Below are positions 39,462-55,391 of a stretch of 56,549 nt of DNA, piece by piece (within the stretch, counting starts at the first letter, position 1; each line of letters starts with the position of its first letter). The notes beneath the pieces are model-generated. The model worked only from the letters and a program-made list of their open reading frames with translations. It did not search any database and was not told the DNA's origin. The stretch covers positions 1 through 56,549 of the forward strand of contig JAFXVT010000038.1 in assembly GCA_017534835.1 (NCBI GenBank), written 5' to 3'. The translations under genes and the position numbers were made by a program. The DNA comes from Ruminococcus sp. (lineage in GTDB: Bacteria > Bacillota > Clostridia > Oscillospirales > Ruminococcaceae).

Positions 39462-41261
39462 TTATATCTTGGACGTGCCTTTGTTTCCCGCGATCGTGTT
39501 TCTTCTCTGTATTTCGTCAGCCGGCTTATTATTGCGGAGCTCAGAGGGAGAGCCGATAGAATGGCGTCTCTCGACCTTCTTCTCATCAGCGTTCTTTTTG
39601 CCCTCGATGATCTGCTCCTTCTTCCTGACAAGCTGCTTGACCTTACTCTGAGTAGCCTGCTTTGCGTATTCATCGCCTATAACATCATCTGCGATATCAT
39701 CATCGTTGATAGAGAAAGCACCGCCTACATTGAAATCTGCTTCAAAGGCATCCTGCTTTTCGTCCATTCCGTCATAGCGCGACTTCATAAGCTTCTCTAC
39801 GCGGTAGAGCACCTTGTACTTGTGCTCGGTGCTGAAATCAGTCTCGCCCTTGACAGCCTTGTGCGCATAGTAAGCTCCGATATCGCCGATTATGCCGCCG
39901 ACAGCAGCTTTGTACTGCTTCTGCATTTCCTCCGGGCTGAGCTCCTTGTTCTGCAGGATCTTCTTGGCTTTGTCAACATCAGACATTATCTTCTTGTATT
40001 CGCTCGAATTCCACTTTGAGGACATCGAGTTTTTCAGCATATCATAGCAGGTATCGAGAGCTTTCTGCTCGCGTTCGTTGATACGGTCTGCGGTGAGGTT
40101 ATCCCCTTTCTCGAATTCGTCTACCCACTCGGGGTTTTTGTCGTCGCCAAGCTTTAGCTGTTTCTCATGCATCGCCGTTTTGTAGTTCTGCTTCATCTGG
40201 AACAGCATATGCTTATATTCATTGATCTTAGCGATCTTCTCAGCAGGTATTCTGTCAATCTTTTCTTTAGTGTACTGGAGCGCCTGCTGACTGCTGCCTT
40301 CCTTTAAGTATTTGACTTCATCGTGAACAAAATTTATCGCTTCCTTATTAGCAGGATCAGCATAGAATTTCTTTGCCTTTTCAAACATCATTTTGTCATA
40401 GTTTGCTGCTTTGTCGCGATCCATGTTATCGAGCTTTTCAGAGAATTCTATCAGTCCGTTCTTCTCCTCAATCTGAGCATATACAGGCATCTTGAAGCTA
40501 TACGCCCAATTTGCAAGTTTCTGCTTATCATCAATATCAGCCCAGTGCTCCACGCCCTTATCCTTTACAAGCTTTTCAACGTGGTCGAGGAAGGCGTTTA
40601 CTGATTTCTTGACCTCAACTTCGGGAGCATTTTTGAGTATCCATCGCTTTCCTTCGGGGTGTTCCACGTTATTCAGGATATTAAGCGGTGCTTTTTTATT
40701 CTTCGGTCCATCACTCGACCTCAGATAATCATCATATAGGTCACCGTCAGCTATCTCATTGACATCTACACCCTTTTTCTTGAGCTCCTCAACCCTTTTC
40801 TCCATATCTTCAAGGTCTTTTTCATTTATTGGTTCATTTCCCCAATTAAACCAGAAAGGATCTTCTTTACCCATATCATTTTTGAATGTTATAACAGGCT
40901 TGGTAGGATCTTTAGGATCTATCTTCTTGATCAACCTGTCAAGGGCTTTGTCATAGTCTTCCATTTGCTCCTTAGATAGACCACTTAATTCATTTCTAAT
41001 CCCAGGAGCCAGCTCAAAAGAATCAAGATCTTCTTCTTTACATTCAGAAAGTTTCTTGAGGTTATTTATAGTAACTTTCGGAAATTGTGACTTTCTCCTG
41101 ATCATATCGATCGTTCTCATGAAGTCCTGTGCATTTTTAGTTGCCTGATCCATATCGTCACAAAACTTGATCTCGTTTTTATACAAAATATTTGTCAAAA
41201 ATCCGTTTTCTTGAAGCTTTTTAACAAACTTGTTATACTGTTTTTCTGATGCCAATGCCAT
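39462..41261 (-). CDS. Lysine-rich 599-aa orphan protein of unknown function
   Basis: 599 aa, ATG 41261 with AGGAGG upstream. I do not recognise any family. The protein is very charged (Lys, Glu, Asp), mostly helical in appearance, with several heptad-like stretches (EKDLEDMEKRVEELKKKG, about 146-163) and no signal peptide or membrane helix. Features: an aromatic patch DPFWFNWGNEP (about 132-142), a Gly/Ala segment VGGIIGDIGAYYAHKAVKG (about 457-475), and a basic tail with two similar motifs, RRHSIG (565-570) and RRNTIAG (586-592). Base composition is clearly more AT-rich than the neighbours, notably 40300-41260, suggesting acquisition. It is monocistronic, bounded by terminators, between tRNA-Arg and the alaS operon. 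Confidence 0.85.
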   Translation of the reverse strand: MALASEKQYNKFVKKLQENGFLTNILYKNEIKFCDDMDQATKNAQDFMRTIDMIRRKSQFPKVTINNLKKLSECKEEDLDSFELAPGIRNELSGLSKEQMEDYDKALDRLIKKIDPKDPTKPVITFKNDMGKEDPFWFNWGNEPINEKDLEDMEKRVEELKKKGVDVNEIADGDLYDDYLRSSDGPKNKKAPLNILNNVEHPEGKRWILKNAPEVEVKKSVNAFLDHVEKLVKDKGVEHWADIDDKQKLANWAYSFKMPVYAQIEEKNGLIEFSEKLDNMDRDKAANYDKMMFEKAKKFYADPANKEAINFVHDEVKYLKEGSSQQALQYTKEKIDRIPAEKIAKINEYKHMLFQMKQNYKTAMHEKQLKLGDDKNPEWVDEFEKGDNLTADRINEREQKALDTCYDMLKNSMSSKWNSSEYKKIMSDVDKAKKILQNKELSPEEMQKQYKAAVGGIIGDIGAYYAHKAVKGETDFSTEHKYKVLYRVEKLMKSRYDGMDEKQDAFEADFNVGGAFSINDDDIADDVIGDEYAKQATQSKVKQLVRKKEQIIEGKKNADEKKVERRHSIGSPSELRNNKPADEIQRRNTIAGNKGTSKI

Positions 41262-41389: not shown

Positions 41390-41431
41390 TAAAAAAGGCA
41401 AGACCCCACAGGTACGCGCCCTGTGAGGTCT
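41390..41431 (-). terminator. Terminator at the end of the alaS operon
   Basis: On the minus transcript GACCTCACAGG pairs with CCTGTGGGGTC (one T-G wobble) around GCGCGTA, then GCCTTTTTT. It lies 5 bp past the NYN-domain stop. Confidence 0.85.
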
Positions 41432-41435
41432 TTTG

Positions 41436-43169
41436 TCATTTCCCGATGTATTCGCGTATCGCGCGGTCGGCTTCTCTCACGCGGTCGAGCAGCTCCGCTG
41501 CCGGTATACGCATCGCGCCGTTGCCGAAGATTATCAGCTGCTCCGGACCGTCGCTCGTTGCGACCTTTACGCGGTGCCTGACCGAAAGCTCGCGGCTGAC
41601 ACGCTCGATGTAGCTGTCGGCGGTCTCCTTTTCCTTCGTGTAGACGATGTTGATGTTGTAATAGCGCTCAACGTCGCGGTGACGTCCCTTTACCTTGTAT
41701 GCGTCAAATACAAGTATCACCTCGCAGCCGGCGTAGCCCTGATAATTGCACATTATCTTCACGAGCTCAGCACGTGCCGCGTCGAGGTTGTTGTCGGCTA
41801 TTCTGCGGAGGTCCTCCCACGCATATATGATGTTGTAGCCGTCAACGAGAAGGTATTCCGGTCCCTCGTAGTCCGGCAGCTTTACGGGCTTGCTGTAGTC
41901 GCTCTCGACTCTTGTGCGCTTGAATGCACGGCGAGGGTCACGGTCTATCTTGCCGTAGGTGCGCTCGAAAATCTCCATAAGCTCCTCGTCGGTCGCGGCT
42001 CGCTCGTAGAACCGGCGTACACGCTCCTGCTTTCCGCTCTCGGAGCTGTCTGTCTCCTCCGCAAAGCAGGACGGCAGATGCATCTTCTCCGGCACCTCGT
42101 CCCATTTCACGATGAAGCCTGCTCCGTGGCTGCAAAATACGGAATCAGCGCTGTTTTCGAGGTCGTTGTCGCAGTCGTAGCCTATCGCGGCGATGACCTC
42201 CTCAGCATTGTGGCACGGACGATAGCCGCTGTTTACGCACGAAAGCCTGCCCTTTCCGCGAGTATAGCCTACAACATCGGACTGATAGCCGCCAAGCTCG
42301 GAAACGGGGGCGCTGCCCGTGATGACCGACATCTCGCCGACGGTCTCGGGTGCGGAGAATTCCGCGGACATACGCTGCAAGTCCGAGATAGCGCGTCCCA
42401 CGAATTCGGACGGGACTTCAAGCTCGTAATCGTAATACGGCTCGAGCAGCACGCTCTGTGCGGAGCGAAGTCCCTGACGGACTGCCCTGTATGTCGCCTG
42501 CCGGAAGTCGCCGCCCTCGGTGTGCTTGAGGTGAGCTTTTCCGGCTGCGAGGGTTATTTTCATATCGGTTATCGGCGAGCCGGTCAGCACGCCGATGTGA
42601 GTTTTTTCCTCGAGGTGGGTGAGTATAAGGCGCTGCCAGTTGCGGTCGAGCTTATCCTCGGAGCAGCTCGTTCCAAGAACGATACCGCTGCCCTGCGGAA
42701 GCGGCTCCATAAGCAGGTGTACCTCGGCGTAGTGGCGGAGCGGCTCGTAGTGTCCGACGCCTTCTACCGGCGCGGAAATGGTCTCCTTGTATGCGACTAC
42801 GCCGCTGTCAAAGGTGACAGGATAGCCGAATCTGTCCTCCGCGATGCTGCCGAGAACTTCGAGCTGTACCGCTCCCATAAGCTGGATATGTATCTCGCGA
42901 AGCTGCTCGTTCCATACGATGTGGAGCTGCGGATCCTCGTCCTCAAGGCGTCGCATATCACGCAGAACATCGTATGCGTTCTTCTCGGGCGGAAAGCCGA
43001 CACGATAGGTCATTACCGGTTCGAGAACGGCTCTGTCTGAGTTTCTGATACTGCCGATACCCTGTCCTGCATAAGTGCCGTCAAGTCCGGTCACAGCGCA
43101 TACTGTTCCGGCTTCGGCGAAGTCGGCGGTACGGAAACGCTCGCCCGAGTAGAAGCGGACAGAGCTCAC
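41436..43169 (-). CDS. TetM-like GTPase, C-terminal part, with fused Rae1/YacP-type NYN nuclease domain
   Basis: 577 aa if read from GTG 43169. Residues 1 to about 330 continue the EF-G/TetM-like protein: the rest of domain II (RFYSGERFRTADFAEAGTV), domain III (IHIQLMGAVQLEVLGS, about 92-107), then domains IV and V. After a linker of about 70 aa comes a full NYN domain (about 433-577) matching B. subtilis Rae1/YacP at every motif: LLVDGYNIIYAW, ILVFDAYKVKG, KEKETADSYIERV and VATSDGPEQLIIFGNGAMR. Rae1 cuts mRNA in the ribosomal A site. Upstream, the frame joins the GTPase ORF 43166-43993 if one A is restored at 43171-43173, so this is probably the second half of one gene of about 850 codons. 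The NYN motifs show no decay. Confidence 0.85.
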   Translation of the reverse strand: MSSVRFYSGERFRTADFAEAGTVCAVTGLDGTYAGQGIGSIRNSDRAVLEPVMTYRVGFPPEKNAYDVLRDMRRLEDEDPQLHIVWNEQLREIHIQLMGAVQLEVLGSIAEDRFGYPVTFDSGVVAYKETISAPVEGVGHYEPLRHYAEVHLLMEPLPQGSGIVLGTSCSEDKLDRNWQRLILTHLEEKTHIGVLTGSPITDMKITLAAGKAHLKHTEGGDFRQATYRAVRQGLRSAQSVLLEPYYDYELEVPSEFVGRAISDLQRMSAEFSAPETVGEMSVITGSAPVSELGGYQSDVVGYTRGKGRLSCVNSGYRPCHNAEEVIAAIGYDCDNDLENSADSVFCSHGAGFIVKWDEVPEKMHLPSCFAEETDSSESGKQERVRRFYERAATDEELMEIFERTYGKIDRDPRRAFKRTRVESDYSKPVKLPDYEGPEYLLVDGYNIIYAWEDLRRIADNNLDAARAELVKIMCNYQGYAGCEVILVFDAYKVKGRHRDVERYYNINIVYTKEKETADSYIERVSRELSVRHRVKVATSDGPEQLIIFGNGAMRIPAAELLDRVREADRAIREYIGK

Positions 43170-43993
43170 CTTTCCCGTAAGTCGCTGCCGTCCGGACCTG
43201 TGTATGTGAGCTCGTCGCGGACATTGAGCCTTCCGCCCATAACCTTGAGATGTGTCAGGCGAGTGCCCTTGCTGTCGTATGATATTTTGTATACCCTCGC
43301 ACCGAATGCGGAATTATGCTCCGGCTCGGAGGTGAAGCGGTCGAGCGCGGAAATGAGCTGCTCCACGCCCTCCATTTTCAGAGCTGAACCAAAAAAGCAC
43401 GGTATCACGCGGCGCTCGCTGACAGCTGCGGCTATCTGCTCGTCAGTCAGAGCTCCGCTTTCGAGGTAGAGCTCCATAAGCTGCTCGTCACAGGCAGCCG
43501 CATTCTCAGCGATGTCCGCGTCATAGCTGAGATCGGCACACGCGCCCGAAAGCTGCCGGCGGAGCTTGTCCATTATCGCAGCCCTGTCAGCACCGATGAG
43601 GTCCATTTTATTCACGAAGATGAACACCGGCACCTCGTATTTCCGCAGCAGCTTCCAGAGCGTCGAGGTGTGGCTCTGAACGCCGTCCGTACCGCTGATA
43701 ACGAGCACTGCGTAGTCCATAACACGCATTGTACGCTCGGTCTCGGCGGAGAAATCAACGTGTCCGGGAGTATCGACGAGTGTGATATGCGTATCACCGG
43801 CGGTCATCTCCGCCTGACTTGCGAATATGGTGATACCGCGGTCACGCTCGATGCGGTCCGTATCAAGGAAGGAGCTTCCGCTGTCGACTCTGCCGGCTTT
43901 GCGTATACTGCCCGTCAGGAAAAGCATAGCCTCTGCGAGCGTTGTCTTGCCGGAATCGACGTGCGCTGTGATGCCGATAGTTATATTTTTCAT
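43166..43993 (-). CDS. TetM-like translational GTPase, N-terminal part (frame interrupted)
   Basis: 275 aa, ATG 43993 with GAGGAGGGG upstream. The G domain is complete: AHVDSGKTT (about 10-18), ERDRGITIF in switch I (about 50-58), VDTPGHVDF (about 74-82), FVNKMD (about 128-133) and GSALK (about 201-205). This order and the KAGRVDSGSS segment match ribosomal-protection GTPases of the Tet(M)/Tet(W) type more than canonical EF-G. The ORF stops in the middle of domain II (after GPDGSDLRER), where the next frame takes over with a GTGA overlap. Restoring one A gives LREKVSSVRFYSG and a continuous protein. The stop is therefore probably a frameshift, from mutation or sequencing error. It is unlikely to be tetracycline resistance given the fused nuclease. 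Confidence 0.85.
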   Translation of the reverse strand: MKNITIGITAHVDSGKTTLAEAMLFLTGSIRKAGRVDSGSSFLDTDRIERDRGITIFASQAEMTAGDTHITLVDTPGHVDFSAETERTMRVMDYAVLVISGTDGVQSHTSTLWKLLRKYEVPVFIFVNKMDLIGADRAAIMDKLRRQLSGACADLSYDADIAENAAACDEQLMELYLESGALTDEQIAAAVSERRVIPCFFGSALKMEGVEQLISALDRFTSEPEHNSAFGARVYKISYDSKGTRLTHLKVMGGRLNVRDELTYTGPDGSDLRER

Positions 43994-52496: not shown

Positions 52497-55127
52497 TTAC
52501 TTGATGATATTAGATACCACGCTCTCGAACTGTGCAAGAGCCTCATCTATCTTGGCAATATCGCCTGCACCAGCCATTGCGCCGTCGGGCTTTCCGCCGC
52601 CCTTTCCGCCTGTAACAGCGGCTATCTCGCGGACGATAGTGCCTGCATTTCCGCCCTTTGCAACTGCTTCTTTGGTGCATACGCAGTAGAATGTGCCCTT
52701 CTCACCGACTGTGCCTGCGAAAAGTGCGATAACAGGCTCGTTCTTGTCCTTTACGCTGTCGCCGAGCTTGCGGAGCGCGTCGGGAGCTGTGCCGTCAAGT
52801 CTTGCGGAAACGAGCTTCACGCCGCCGACTTCCTTTGCATTGTCGAAGAGAGAAGCTGTCTTTGCGTTTGCTATCTGCTGGTTGAGGCTCTCGAGCTTCT
52901 TGTCCTTGTCCTTGAGCTCGGCAGCAACAGCAGCGCACTTCTCGGGGAGCTCGCTCACATTTGCGAGCTTGAGAGCCTTTGCAGAGCGTGCGATAGTGTC
53001 CTTGAATTCGTTGAGCAGAGCCATCACGCCCATACCTGTTACAGCCTCGATACGTCTTACGCCGGCTGCGACAGAGCTCTCGGAAACTATCTTGAAGAGT
53101 CCTATCTGTGATGTATTAGAAATGTGAGTACCGCCGCAGAATTCGATAGAGCTGTCAGCAGTTACTACTCTTACAGTGTCGCCGTACTTCTCGCCGAAGA
53201 GAGCCATTGCACCGAGCTTCTTAGCCTCCTCGATAGGGAGCTCCTGCATCGTTACGGGTACAGCCTTCATTATCTCGGCATTGACGAGCTCCTCGACCTT
53301 TGTTATCTCCTCGGCAGTCATTGCGGAGAAGTGGTTGAAGTCGAAGCGGCAGGCGTTCTCATTTACGAGCTGACCAGCCTGATGTACGTGGTCGCCAAGC
53401 ACCTGACGGAGCGCATACTGAAGAAGATGAGCAGTCGTGTGGTTGCGCATTATAGCCCATCTGCGCTCTCTGTCGATAGCGGCAGTTACGTTGTCGCCCT
53501 TGCGGAGAGTTCCCTGCTCGACTGTCGCAACATGGAGGAAGTGACCCTCAGACTTGATAGTATCGGCAACAGAAGCGATGTTCTCGCCGCTGATTATCGA
53601 GCCGGTATCGCCGACCTGTCCGCCGCTCTCAGCGTAGAAGGGAGTAACATCGAGCACGATGACTACGTCGTCGCCCTCGTTTGCGAAATCGACCTCAGCG
53701 CCGTCCTTGTAGATAGCGAGTATCTCAGCGCTCTCAGCCTCGAAATCGGTATAGCCGGTGAATACGGTCTTGGGAGCGTCTACCTTTATGCTGTTGTCAG
53801 CCCACGAAGAGCCAGCCTTTGCAGCGTGGTCAGCCTTCGCACGTGCTCTCTGCTCCTTTGCGAGCTCAGTGAAGCGGTCGCGGTCAACTGTGAGTCCCTT
53901 CTCCTCGCATATCTCCTCTGTAAGGTCTATCGGGAAGCCGTATGTATCGGAGAGCCTGAATGCATCGTCGCCGGAGAGAACTGTCTTGCCCTCAGCTTTG
54001 AGAGCCTCGGTGAAGCCGTTGAGCATCTCTGTGCCCTTGTCGATGGTCTTGGCAAAAGCCTCCTCCTCGACGCCGATTATCTTCTTGATGTAGTCGCGCT
54101 TCTCGGCGAGCTCGGGATAAGCAGTTGCATTCTCATTGATAACAGTGTCGCATACCTCGCAGAGGAAGGGCTTTGTTATGCCGAGAAGTCTGCCGTGGCG
54201 TGCAGCTCTTCTGAGGAGACGGCGGAGAACGTAGCCGCGTCCCTCGTTGGAGGGCATAATGCCGTCGCCGACCATAAATGTTGTGCTTCTGATGTGGTCA
54301 GTGATGACACGGAGAGAAACGTCGGTCTTGTGGTCGTTCTTGTACTCAACGCCTGCGATGCGTGAGATGTGCTTCATAATATTCTGAACAGTGTCGACCT
54401 CGAAGATATTGTCGACGTTCTGCATAACACAGGCAAGTCTCTCAAGACCCATACCTGTGTCGATGTTCTTGTTCTTCATCTCGGCATAGTGACCCTCGCC
54501 GTCGCTGTCGAACTGGCTGAATACGAGGTTCCATATCTCGATAACGCGGTCGCAGTCGCTTGCCTGCTCGAAGCTCTCGAACGGACCGTAAGCCTCTCCG
54601 CGGTCGAAATGTATCTCAGAGCAGGGACCGCAGGGACCTGAGCCGTGCTCCCAGAAGTTGTCCTTCTTGCCGAGGCGGATTATCCTGTCGTGGGGGATAC
54701 CGATGTTGTTCTCCCAGATCTGCTCAGCCTCGTCATCGCTCTCGTAGATCGTTATCCAGAGGCGGTCTGCCGGTATCTCGAGCACCTTTGTGAGGAATTC
54801 CCAAGCCCAGTCGATAGCCTCGGTCTTGAAGTAATCGCCGAACGAGAAGTTGCCGAGCATCTCAAAATATGTACCGTGGCGAGCTGTCTTGCCTACGCTC
54901 TCGATGTCGGGAGTTCTGATACACTTCTGGCAGGTAGTAACTCTCACATTGGGAGGAGTAGCCTGTCCGAGGAAGAATTTCTTGAGCGGAGCCATACCTG
55001 AGTTGATGAGAAGGAGGCTCTTGTCTCCCTGCGGAACGAGCGAAGCGCTCGCCATACGTGTGTGGTTCTTGCTCTCGAAGAATGAAAGATACTTTTCGCG
55101 TAAGTCATTAAGACCTGTCCACTGCAT
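52497..55127 (-). CDS. alaS: Alanyl-tRNA synthetase
   Basis: 876 aa from ATG 55127, nine bases after AAAGGAG; the longer frame upstream reads through the leader and is not translated. Class II core with LREKYLSFFESKNHTRM at the start, then GMAPLKKFFLGQATPPN and CQKCIRTPDIESVGKTARHG, read in parts as KCIRTPDIES and GRHGTYFEMLGN-like (ARHGTYFEMLGNFSFGDYF). The editing domain has RNHTTAHLLQYALR (HXXXH) and CGGTHISNT supplies the zinc ligands. A Gly-rich C-Ala domain (GGKGGGKPDGAMAGA) ends the protein. It is the first gene of a 13.7-kb co-directional run and is controlled by a T-box. Confidence 0.97.
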   Translation of the reverse strand: MQWTGLNDLREKYLSFFESKNHTRMASASLVPQGDKSLLLINSGMAPLKKFFLGQATPPNVRVTTCQKCIRTPDIESVGKTARHGTYFEMLGNFSFGDYFKTEAIDWAWEFLTKVLEIPADRLWITIYESDDEAEQIWENNIGIPHDRIIRLGKKDNFWEHGSGPCGPCSEIHFDRGEAYGPFESFEQASDCDRVIEIWNLVFSQFDSDGEGHYAEMKNKNIDTGMGLERLACVMQNVDNIFEVDTVQNIMKHISRIAGVEYKNDHKTDVSLRVITDHIRSTTFMVGDGIMPSNEGRGYVLRRLLRRAARHGRLLGITKPFLCEVCDTVINENATAYPELAEKRDYIKKIIGVEEEAFAKTIDKGTEMLNGFTEALKAEGKTVLSGDDAFRLSDTYGFPIDLTEEICEEKGLTVDRDRFTELAKEQRARAKADHAAKAGSSWADNSIKVDAPKTVFTGYTDFEAESAEILAIYKDGAEVDFANEGDDVVIVLDVTPFYAESGGQVGDTGSIISGENIASVADTIKSEGHFLHVATVEQGTLRKGDNVTAAIDRERRWAIMRNHTTAHLLQYALRQVLGDHVHQAGQLVNENACRFDFNHFSAMTAEEITKVEELVNAEIMKAVPVTMQELPIEEAKKLGAMALFGEKYGDTVRVVTADSSIEFCGGTHISNTSQIGLFKIVSESSVAAGVRRIEAVTGMGVMALLNEFKDTIARSAKALKLANVSELPEKCAAVAAELKDKDKKLESLNQQIANAKTASLFDNAKEVGGVKLVSARLDGTAPDALRKLGDSVKDKNEPVIALFAGTVGEKGTFYCVCTKEAVAKGGNAGTIVREIAAVTGGKGGGKPDGAMAGAGDIAKIDEALAQFESVVSNIIK

Positions 55128-55164
55128 AGATATTATCTCCTTTAATAAAATGATTTGCGGGACA

Positions 55165-55385
55165 AAATATAAAAAGCCCCGCCGCCAAATGGGACGAAGG
55201 CTCTCGTGGTACCACCCAAATTCAAAGGAGCATACTGCCCCTTCCTCGTTCGTCCTTAACGCGGACATACGCCGGAGTTTCCCGCGGAGGCTCGGGGTAA
55301 GCACCTGCCCTGCGCCTGAAAGCTCGCACCTGCCGCTTTCTCTCTGAAAGGCGCGCCAAAGCAGTCAATCCCGTCGACGCCATAC
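55165..55385 (-). promoter_or_regulatory. T-box leader of alaS
   Basis: The minus-strand leader holds the T-box core GGGTGGTACCACGAG (55217-55203), close to the AGGGTGGNACCGCG consensus, preceded by a structured stem-I region with TCAGAGAG and GGTGCGAGC motifs. It is followed by a terminator stem ending GGGGCTTTTT (55180-55171). Uncharged tRNA-Ala is expected to stabilise the antiterminator and allow alaS transcription. I could not place the alanine specifier codon with certainty. Confidence 0.93.
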
Positions 55386-55391
55386 ACATAC

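Follow-up and report, generated by a model that had tools for sequence, protein, structure and literature searches.

A translational GTPase fused to a Rae1-type NYN nuclease in Clostridia: a candidate ribosome-associated endoribonuclease that appears to replace stand-alone Rae1

A gene on the reverse strand of a 56,549-nucleotide (nt) stretch of Ruminococcus sp. DNA (GenBank assembly GCA_017534835.1, contig JAFXVT010000038.1, positions 1 to 56,549; the whole stretch is called the window here), at positions 41,436 to 43,993, encodes in two overlapping pieces a translational GTPase of the elongation factor G (EF-G) kind and a nuclease domain of the NYN_YacP, or Rae1, type. In intact homologues the two are carried on one chain, and the distribution, motifs and trees described below suggest that this fused protein stands in place of stand-alone Rae1 in the genomes that possess it. 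With about even confidence, we propose for the intact protein a role as a ribosome-associated endoribonuclease, namely, a GTPase-delivered Rae1 substituting for the free enzyme (YacP) found in other clostridia and in bacilli. This is the simplest reading, since the chain replaces Rae1, keeps its active site, drops its C-terminal tail motif and adds a GTPase.

The fusion is genuine, since full-length single-frame copies occur in 48 of the 59 other genomes of the genus (49 copies of 854 to 1,004 amino acids [aa] with no stop; a raw tally of 59/60 genomes takes in EF-G-type matches, and a few further genomes hold only fragments). Uninterrupted homologues in this domain order, for which the initial annotation had called, are abundant, and the two domains are not always encoded separately; one-frame fusions dominate. 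The intact reference used here is the 855-aa protein of Ruminococcus flavefaciens XPD3002 (locus L039). Among 393 genomes sampled from the class Clostridia, each at least 90% complete, NYN_YacP was found in 249, with one match per genome except for two in G343. The 150 matches listed, for which frame lengths were covered (about 100 further matches lie beyond them), comprise 65 stand-alone genes (at most 220 aa), 80 fused genes (at least 700 aa) and 5 genes of intermediate frame length (G231, G215, G354, G244 and G294). The GTPase subfamily, for which membership was set at an E value of at most 1e-130, occurs in 157 of the 393 genomes, 130 of which were scored as fused and 25 as unfused, with 2 left unassigned (G257 and G395); "fused" here denotes a genome with the GTPase that falls outside the list of 25 with an unfused frame length, and 5 of those 25 were judged from homologue hits. 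All 130 fused-scored genomes carry an NYN domain, and the GTPase frame reaches at least 780 aa in 126 of them, the shorter frames of G000, G103, G231 and G294 being broken or cut. No genome combined a stand-alone NYN gene with a fused GTPase (65 stand-alone genes among the class matches listed). The genomes with an unfused GTPase divide into 19 with a separate NYN gene and 6 without an NYN_YacP match at an E value of 1e-5 (G084, G087, G113, G127, G237 and G347). In the order Oscillospirales, NYN was detected in 51 of 147 genomes, once in each, and the frame reaches 833 aa or more in 49 of them, the exceptions being the window's own genome and G554; in the phylum sample it was detected in 135 of 249 genomes, again singly except for two matches in G775. 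By this pattern, the fused GTPase-NYN protein replaces stand-alone Rae1 in the genomes that carry it.

Judged by score and by its domain IV loop, the GTPase half is not a Tet protein; it falls into a distinct subfamily that occurs unfused as well. The initial annotation had described it as a ribosomal-protection-type, Tet(M)-like GTPase, and while the layout of the G motifs bears out the likeness, the score and the domain IV loop speak against assignment to that type. The best NCBIfam model for the GTPase is NF012153, on which the L039 protein reached 425.2 bits against a cut-off of 775 and three unfused relatives reached 393 to 458 bits, compared with 880 and 853 bits for the Tet(M)-type controls L169 and L170. 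The analysis covered 109 fused-type loci (29 from the genus and the best 80 of 243 loci encoding relatives), from which 108 intact fused proteins were taken. The P-loop (108/110), DTPGH (108/110) and NKxD (110/110) are conserved among the fused proteins, and the SPVS loop of Tet(M) domain IV is present in none of the 110 versus 3/3 Tet(M)-type controls. Domain IV bears the signature HxKHTxGGDF in 109/110 fused proteins and in all 21 unfused clostridial relatives, and the core pattern of a C-terminal extension (CHN...SVFC) was found in 109/110 fused and 21/21 unfused proteins but in none of 6 Tet or Tet-like controls. The fused protein thus shares with Tet(M) and Tet(O) an EF-G-like domain order and the G motifs, but Tet(M)-type hits show 30 to 31% identity, differ in the domain IV loop and at the C terminus, and form their own clade in the GTPase trees. 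Nearer relatives are the unfused proteins of clostridia and lactobacilli annotated as "translation factor GTPase family", which are 44 to 51% identical over the GTPase half and possess the same C-terminal extension but lack the linker and the NYN domain; this unfused form, of about 650 aa, stops where the linker of the fused protein begins.

The nuclease half keeps the Rae1 active site but not the Rae1 tail motif. The best solved structures for the C-terminal window piece are 5mq8 and 5mq9 (YacP; E value 7.7e-28 by sequence), which we take, from reference titles and general knowledge, to be Rae1 of Bacillus subtilis. The initial annotation had made its proposal depend on conservation of the catalytic residues in the fused family, and D7, N10, D53, D81 and D104 (5mq8/5mq9 numbering), the catalytic acidic residues and asparagine of the NYN site, are retained in 87/87 non-identical fused proteins as well as in 24/24 stand-alone ones. 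Both sets had been chosen by a pattern that itself contains several catalytic letters; however, the only fused-type locus that did not pass it (L058) is cut at a contig end, no complete fused protein was lost, and the two stand-alone loci that it dropped from 26 (L130 and L135) have an asparagine beside the last catalytic aspartate, keep the same five residues and, by eye, both end in LENIRR. Four class loci (L121, L123, L138 and L140) did not extend over the complete gene. An LEKxRR-type motif, defined loosely so that LDKIRK and LEKWRK count, lies within the last 25 residues of 24/24 stand-alone Rae1 proteins and was found in 0/110 fused proteins when their last 40 residues were scanned. The motif aligns with residues 162 to 166 (EKLRR) of the solved YacP. 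In B. subtilis, R166P is the only missense allele among the efp suppressor mutations in rae1, and disruption of rae1 suppresses the efp mutant likewise (PMC6613710), so that R166P behaves as a loss of function; R166 is the final residue of the motif missing from all 110 fused proteins. Between the two halves, a linker motif (L..IFE.TYG-like) was detected by pattern in 92/110 fused proteins and in none of 21 unfused GTPases or 24 stand-alone Rae1 proteins; the other 18 fused proteins belong mainly to families of other orders than the window's, and in most of them a variant can be recognized by eye.

EF-G-type GTPases enter the ribosomal A site. In the proposed mechanism, the GTPase half of the fused protein, a member of the EF-G/Tet superfamily, would bind stalled or slow ribosomes and enter the A site, with GTP driving this entry; the C-terminal Rae1-type nuclease would be carried along and would cut mRNA in the A site, and the cut would start decay or rescue. 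Rae1 itself is described as an endoribonuclease of the ribosomal A site with mRNA substrates (PMC6613710). The tail of stand-alone Rae1 may once have served ribosome docking, a role that the GTPase would have taken over. Delivery of the nuclease to the A site by the GTPase, as the initial annotation had suggested, is plausible, and two findings strengthen it: stand-alone Rae1 is replaced, and its C-terminal motif has been lost. For the fuller statement, that GTP-driven entry places the nuclease on stalled ribosomes and that the GTPase makes the Rae1 C-terminal motif superfluous, our confidence falls somewhat short of even. Several observations weigh against the proposal: (i) domain IV of the GTPase and Rae1 would both occupy the same A site; (ii) the gene is dispensable, being absent from some genomes of the genus and the family that are at least 95% complete; (iii) the GTPase is of use by itself, since 6/25 genomes with the unfused form have no NYN domain; (iv) unfused GTPase and stand-alone Rae1 co-occur weakly (19/117 versus 6/144 genomes; Fisher P = 0.0012, with kinship ignored); and (v) the samples behind the motif contrasts comprise 21 unfused GTPases and 24 to 26 stand-alone Rae1 proteins, many of them from one family (f38).

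The same architecture can be explained by other rationales. In 2015, Atkinson suggested a ribosomal protection protein that confers tetracycline resistance and has gained an RNase, classing the fusion with Tet and calling it a possible new resistance mechanism (PMC4342817); databases likewise label some members as TetM/TetW/TetO/TetS family, and NF012153 is, after all, the best-matching model. Nevertheless, the scores far below the family cut-off, the missing SPVS loop together with the near-universal HxKHTxGGDF signature, and the separate clade of the Tet(M)-type proteins make this explanation highly improbable.

Alternatively, the protein could be a factor in ribosome assembly or in rRNA or tRNA maturation, with the GTPase binding ribosomal particles and the NYN domain trimming stable RNA. 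BipA, another EF-G relative, acts in maturation of the large subunit (PMC8313970), and a gene of the RlmB/SpoU kind of rRNA methyltransferase, named by eye, lies in the fetched flank of 21/26 stand-alone NYN loci. On the other hand, such a gene was found in none of the fetched flanks of 80 fused loci (the best 80 of 243 loci encoding relatives), no neighbor of the fused gene recurs widely outside Ruminococcus in the loci compared, and Rae1, the one close relative described in the literature covered, acts on A-site mRNA; we therefore regard a maturation factor as unlikely. That the chain merely joins two independent activities, the fusion doing no more than securing their joint expression, would agree with the occurrence of the GTPase unfused, with and without NYN, and of Rae1 without the GTPase, as well as with an unfused, long-branched GTPase of Ligilactobacillus salivarius that groups within the fused clade and looks as though the nuclease could be dropped. 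The retention of the fusion in 130 of the 393 sampled class genomes, the missing tail motif and a linker motif that is conserved in fused proteins and was detected in none of the unfused ones compared all point the other way, and we hold this possibility to be quite improbable.

Trees of the GTPase are consistent with a single origin of the fusion. A tree of 51 rows unites its 23 fused rows in a single clade (100/100), whose sister group consists of two unfused proteins from the same order, encoded in genomes without NYN. A tree of 73 rows, built by a quick method and flagged by the program for long branches and unusual residue composition, joins its 43 fused rows into one group with the L. 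salivarius protein inside it. Counted most simply, these trees suggest that the fusion was gained once and later lost once. The NYN tree (22 fused and 25 stand-alone rows on a short alignment) requires two label changes, one of which is forced by well-supported branches. The L. salivarius GTPase (L210:2986-4920) lies beside an rpsN gene on megaplasmid pMP118 of strain UCC118 and is without the exact KHTxGGDF signature; it looks as if it had been acquired by transfer and had then lost the NYN domain. Family f122 of the phylum sample (e.g., G595 and G636) has stand-alone NYN_YacP proteins with much weaker matches (E values of about 1e-16 to 1e-20), which may form a divergent subfamily. The record JAMPAJ010000001.1 (L040), titled Alistipes, holds a Ruminococcus-type fused gene at 76% identity together with the gene block found upstream of it in the window; it is probably mislabelled or mis-binned.

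The window copy is an interrupted gene. The EF-G/EF2-type motifs G1 to G5 and domains III to V are present but divided between two open reading frames (ORFs) that overlap by 4 nt (Table 1), and the C-terminal piece, which the initial annotation had taken for the continuing frame, lies in a different one. Its assignment of a G domain to the N-terminal piece and of a full NYN domain with every Rae1 motif to the C-terminal piece holds: the former matches Pfam GTP_EFTU (E value 1.7e-53, spanning about 43331 to 43987) and has the G motifs AHVDSGKT, DTPGH, NKMD and GSAL, and the latter matches EFG_IV (9.4e-19), EFG_C (1e-19) and NYN_YacP (PF05991; 4.3e-48, 163.9 bits against a curated cut-off of 24.6), with VDGYN, VFDA, ETAD and TSDGPEQ all kept and an EFG_III match that falls below its curated cut-off. 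The domain assignments of both ORFs are far beyond chance.

Table 1. Features of the gene and its surroundings in the window
Feature	Position	Strand	Basis
N-terminal piece: translational-GTPase G domain and following part, 275 aa, then stop	43166..43993	-	ORF
C-terminal piece: remainder of GTPase (domains III to V), linker and NYN domain; 577 aa, GTG start	41436..43169	-	ORF, other frame
EF-G domain IV	42456..42800	-	Pfam match
Domain IV tip loop KAHLKHTEGGDF, site of the SPVS loop in Tet(M)	42504-42539	-	
EF-G domain V (EFG_C)	42207..42452	-	Pfam match
Subfamily-specific extension CHN...SVFCSHGAGF, common to unfused relatives, not in Tet(M)-type controls	42114..42215	-	
Linker motif LMEIFERTYG	41952..41981	-	pattern
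NYN_YacP (Rae1-type) nuclease domain, all catalytic motifs; no LEKxRR-type tail at protein end	41451..41852	-	
Terminator-like hairpin directly 3' of the gene, 13 pairs, T-rich tail	41400..41432	-	
alaS ORF, far upstream	52497..55304	-	named by eye from sequence
T-box leader match at alaS 5' end	55187..55386	-	81.7 bits, Rfam cut-off 93

Each window piece, taken separately, gave a dN of 0.13 to 0.21 versus a dS of at least 1.1 against three relatives (dS being near saturation), and both pieces look constrained; there is no sign of an old pseudogene. Because of this apparent constraint, the frame break is either recent or an assembly error, two alternatives that the closest copy retrieved, only 82% identical to the window gene, is too distant to separate, the genomes compared including no other member of this species. 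A programmed frameshift as a conserved feature was rejected, since 49/49 other full-length copies in the genus are in one frame, and two separate genes as the normal state were rejected because intact single frames dominate among homologues. Any action of the window copy would have to come from two polypeptides. Downstream, the gene is adjoined by that of a highly charged protein of 599 aa (39462-41261, reverse strand).

The initial annotation had placed the gene last in an alaS T-box operon and tied it to alanine starvation. The T-box stands up as a match (E value 2.4e-18 in a 381-base search, with the full GGGUGGUACC core), albeit below the curated gathering score of Rfam, whereas the gene order is not conserved. 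The match lies about 11 kb upstream of the fused gene, preceded by a promoter-like site, and extends into the beginning of alaS as listed; the true start of that ORF probably lies further in. A pattern scan of the interval from alaS to the gene found only weak terminator-like sites (5 to 6 pairs) on this strand, the scan returning 15 sites on both strands versus 12.1 expected; the fused gene may be the last in a long alaS transcript in the window. However, a gap of 377 nt follows alaS. The block upstream of the gene, encoding MBOAT, DltD, SDR and membrane proteins and mostly holA and rnmV too, is kept in 13/80 loci, all of them Ruminococcus by similarity or title except L040. Within L032 to L088, the Ruminococcus group, it occurs in 11 to 12 of 45 loci longer than 12 kb, some with short upstream flanks, and it was found in 0/22 loci outside this group, bar one weak DltD-like hit elsewhere in L103. 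Flanks extended to at most 8 kb, so that alaS lay beyond reach in most loci. The data do not support a tie to alanine starvation in general; the link to the alaS T-box is a local one and is not conserved.

The GTPase-NYN architecture is not new: in 2015, Tet proteins bearing an NYN domain of the YacP kind were reported from ten clostridial species (PMC4342817). Those Tet-NYN proteins resemble the window family in domain combination and bacterial group. They were filed under Tet with a resistance hypothesis, whereas the GTPase described here can be separated from Tet and the fused protein appears to replace stand-alone Rae1. Rae1/YacP has the NYN domain and the catalytic residues in common with the fused protein but is a stand-alone enzyme with the C-terminal LEKxRR-type motif, whereas the fused form belongs to a GTPase chain and lacks that motif. 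What this comparison adds is the separate GTPase subfamily, the fused-or-separate pattern, trees that fit one fusion and the absence of the tail motif. No experimental paper on the fused protein was found in the literature searched, whose coverage excluded most subscription journals. A plasmid record of Agathobacter rectalis (NZ_CP143948.1; L212:2974-5775) encodes a fused protein of 933 aa with the NYN pattern that is annotated as TetM/TetW/TetO/TetS tetracycline resistance; judged from the score of its relative L039, this label looks like a mis-annotation. Since L039, the one fused protein scored, falls far below the cut-off of the resistance family, surveys of gut genomes may count too many resistance genes.

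To conclude, the fused protein is common in the class to which gut and rumen clostridia belong (130/393 sampled genomes). As a GTPase-delivered Rae1, should this reading hold, it would unite factor-driven A-site entry and mRNA cleavage in one chain and would offer a tractable route to the function of the Rae1 C-terminal motif. Such a protein would represent a further way of handling stalled ribosomes, neither a tmRNA-like rescue nor a free A-site nuclease.

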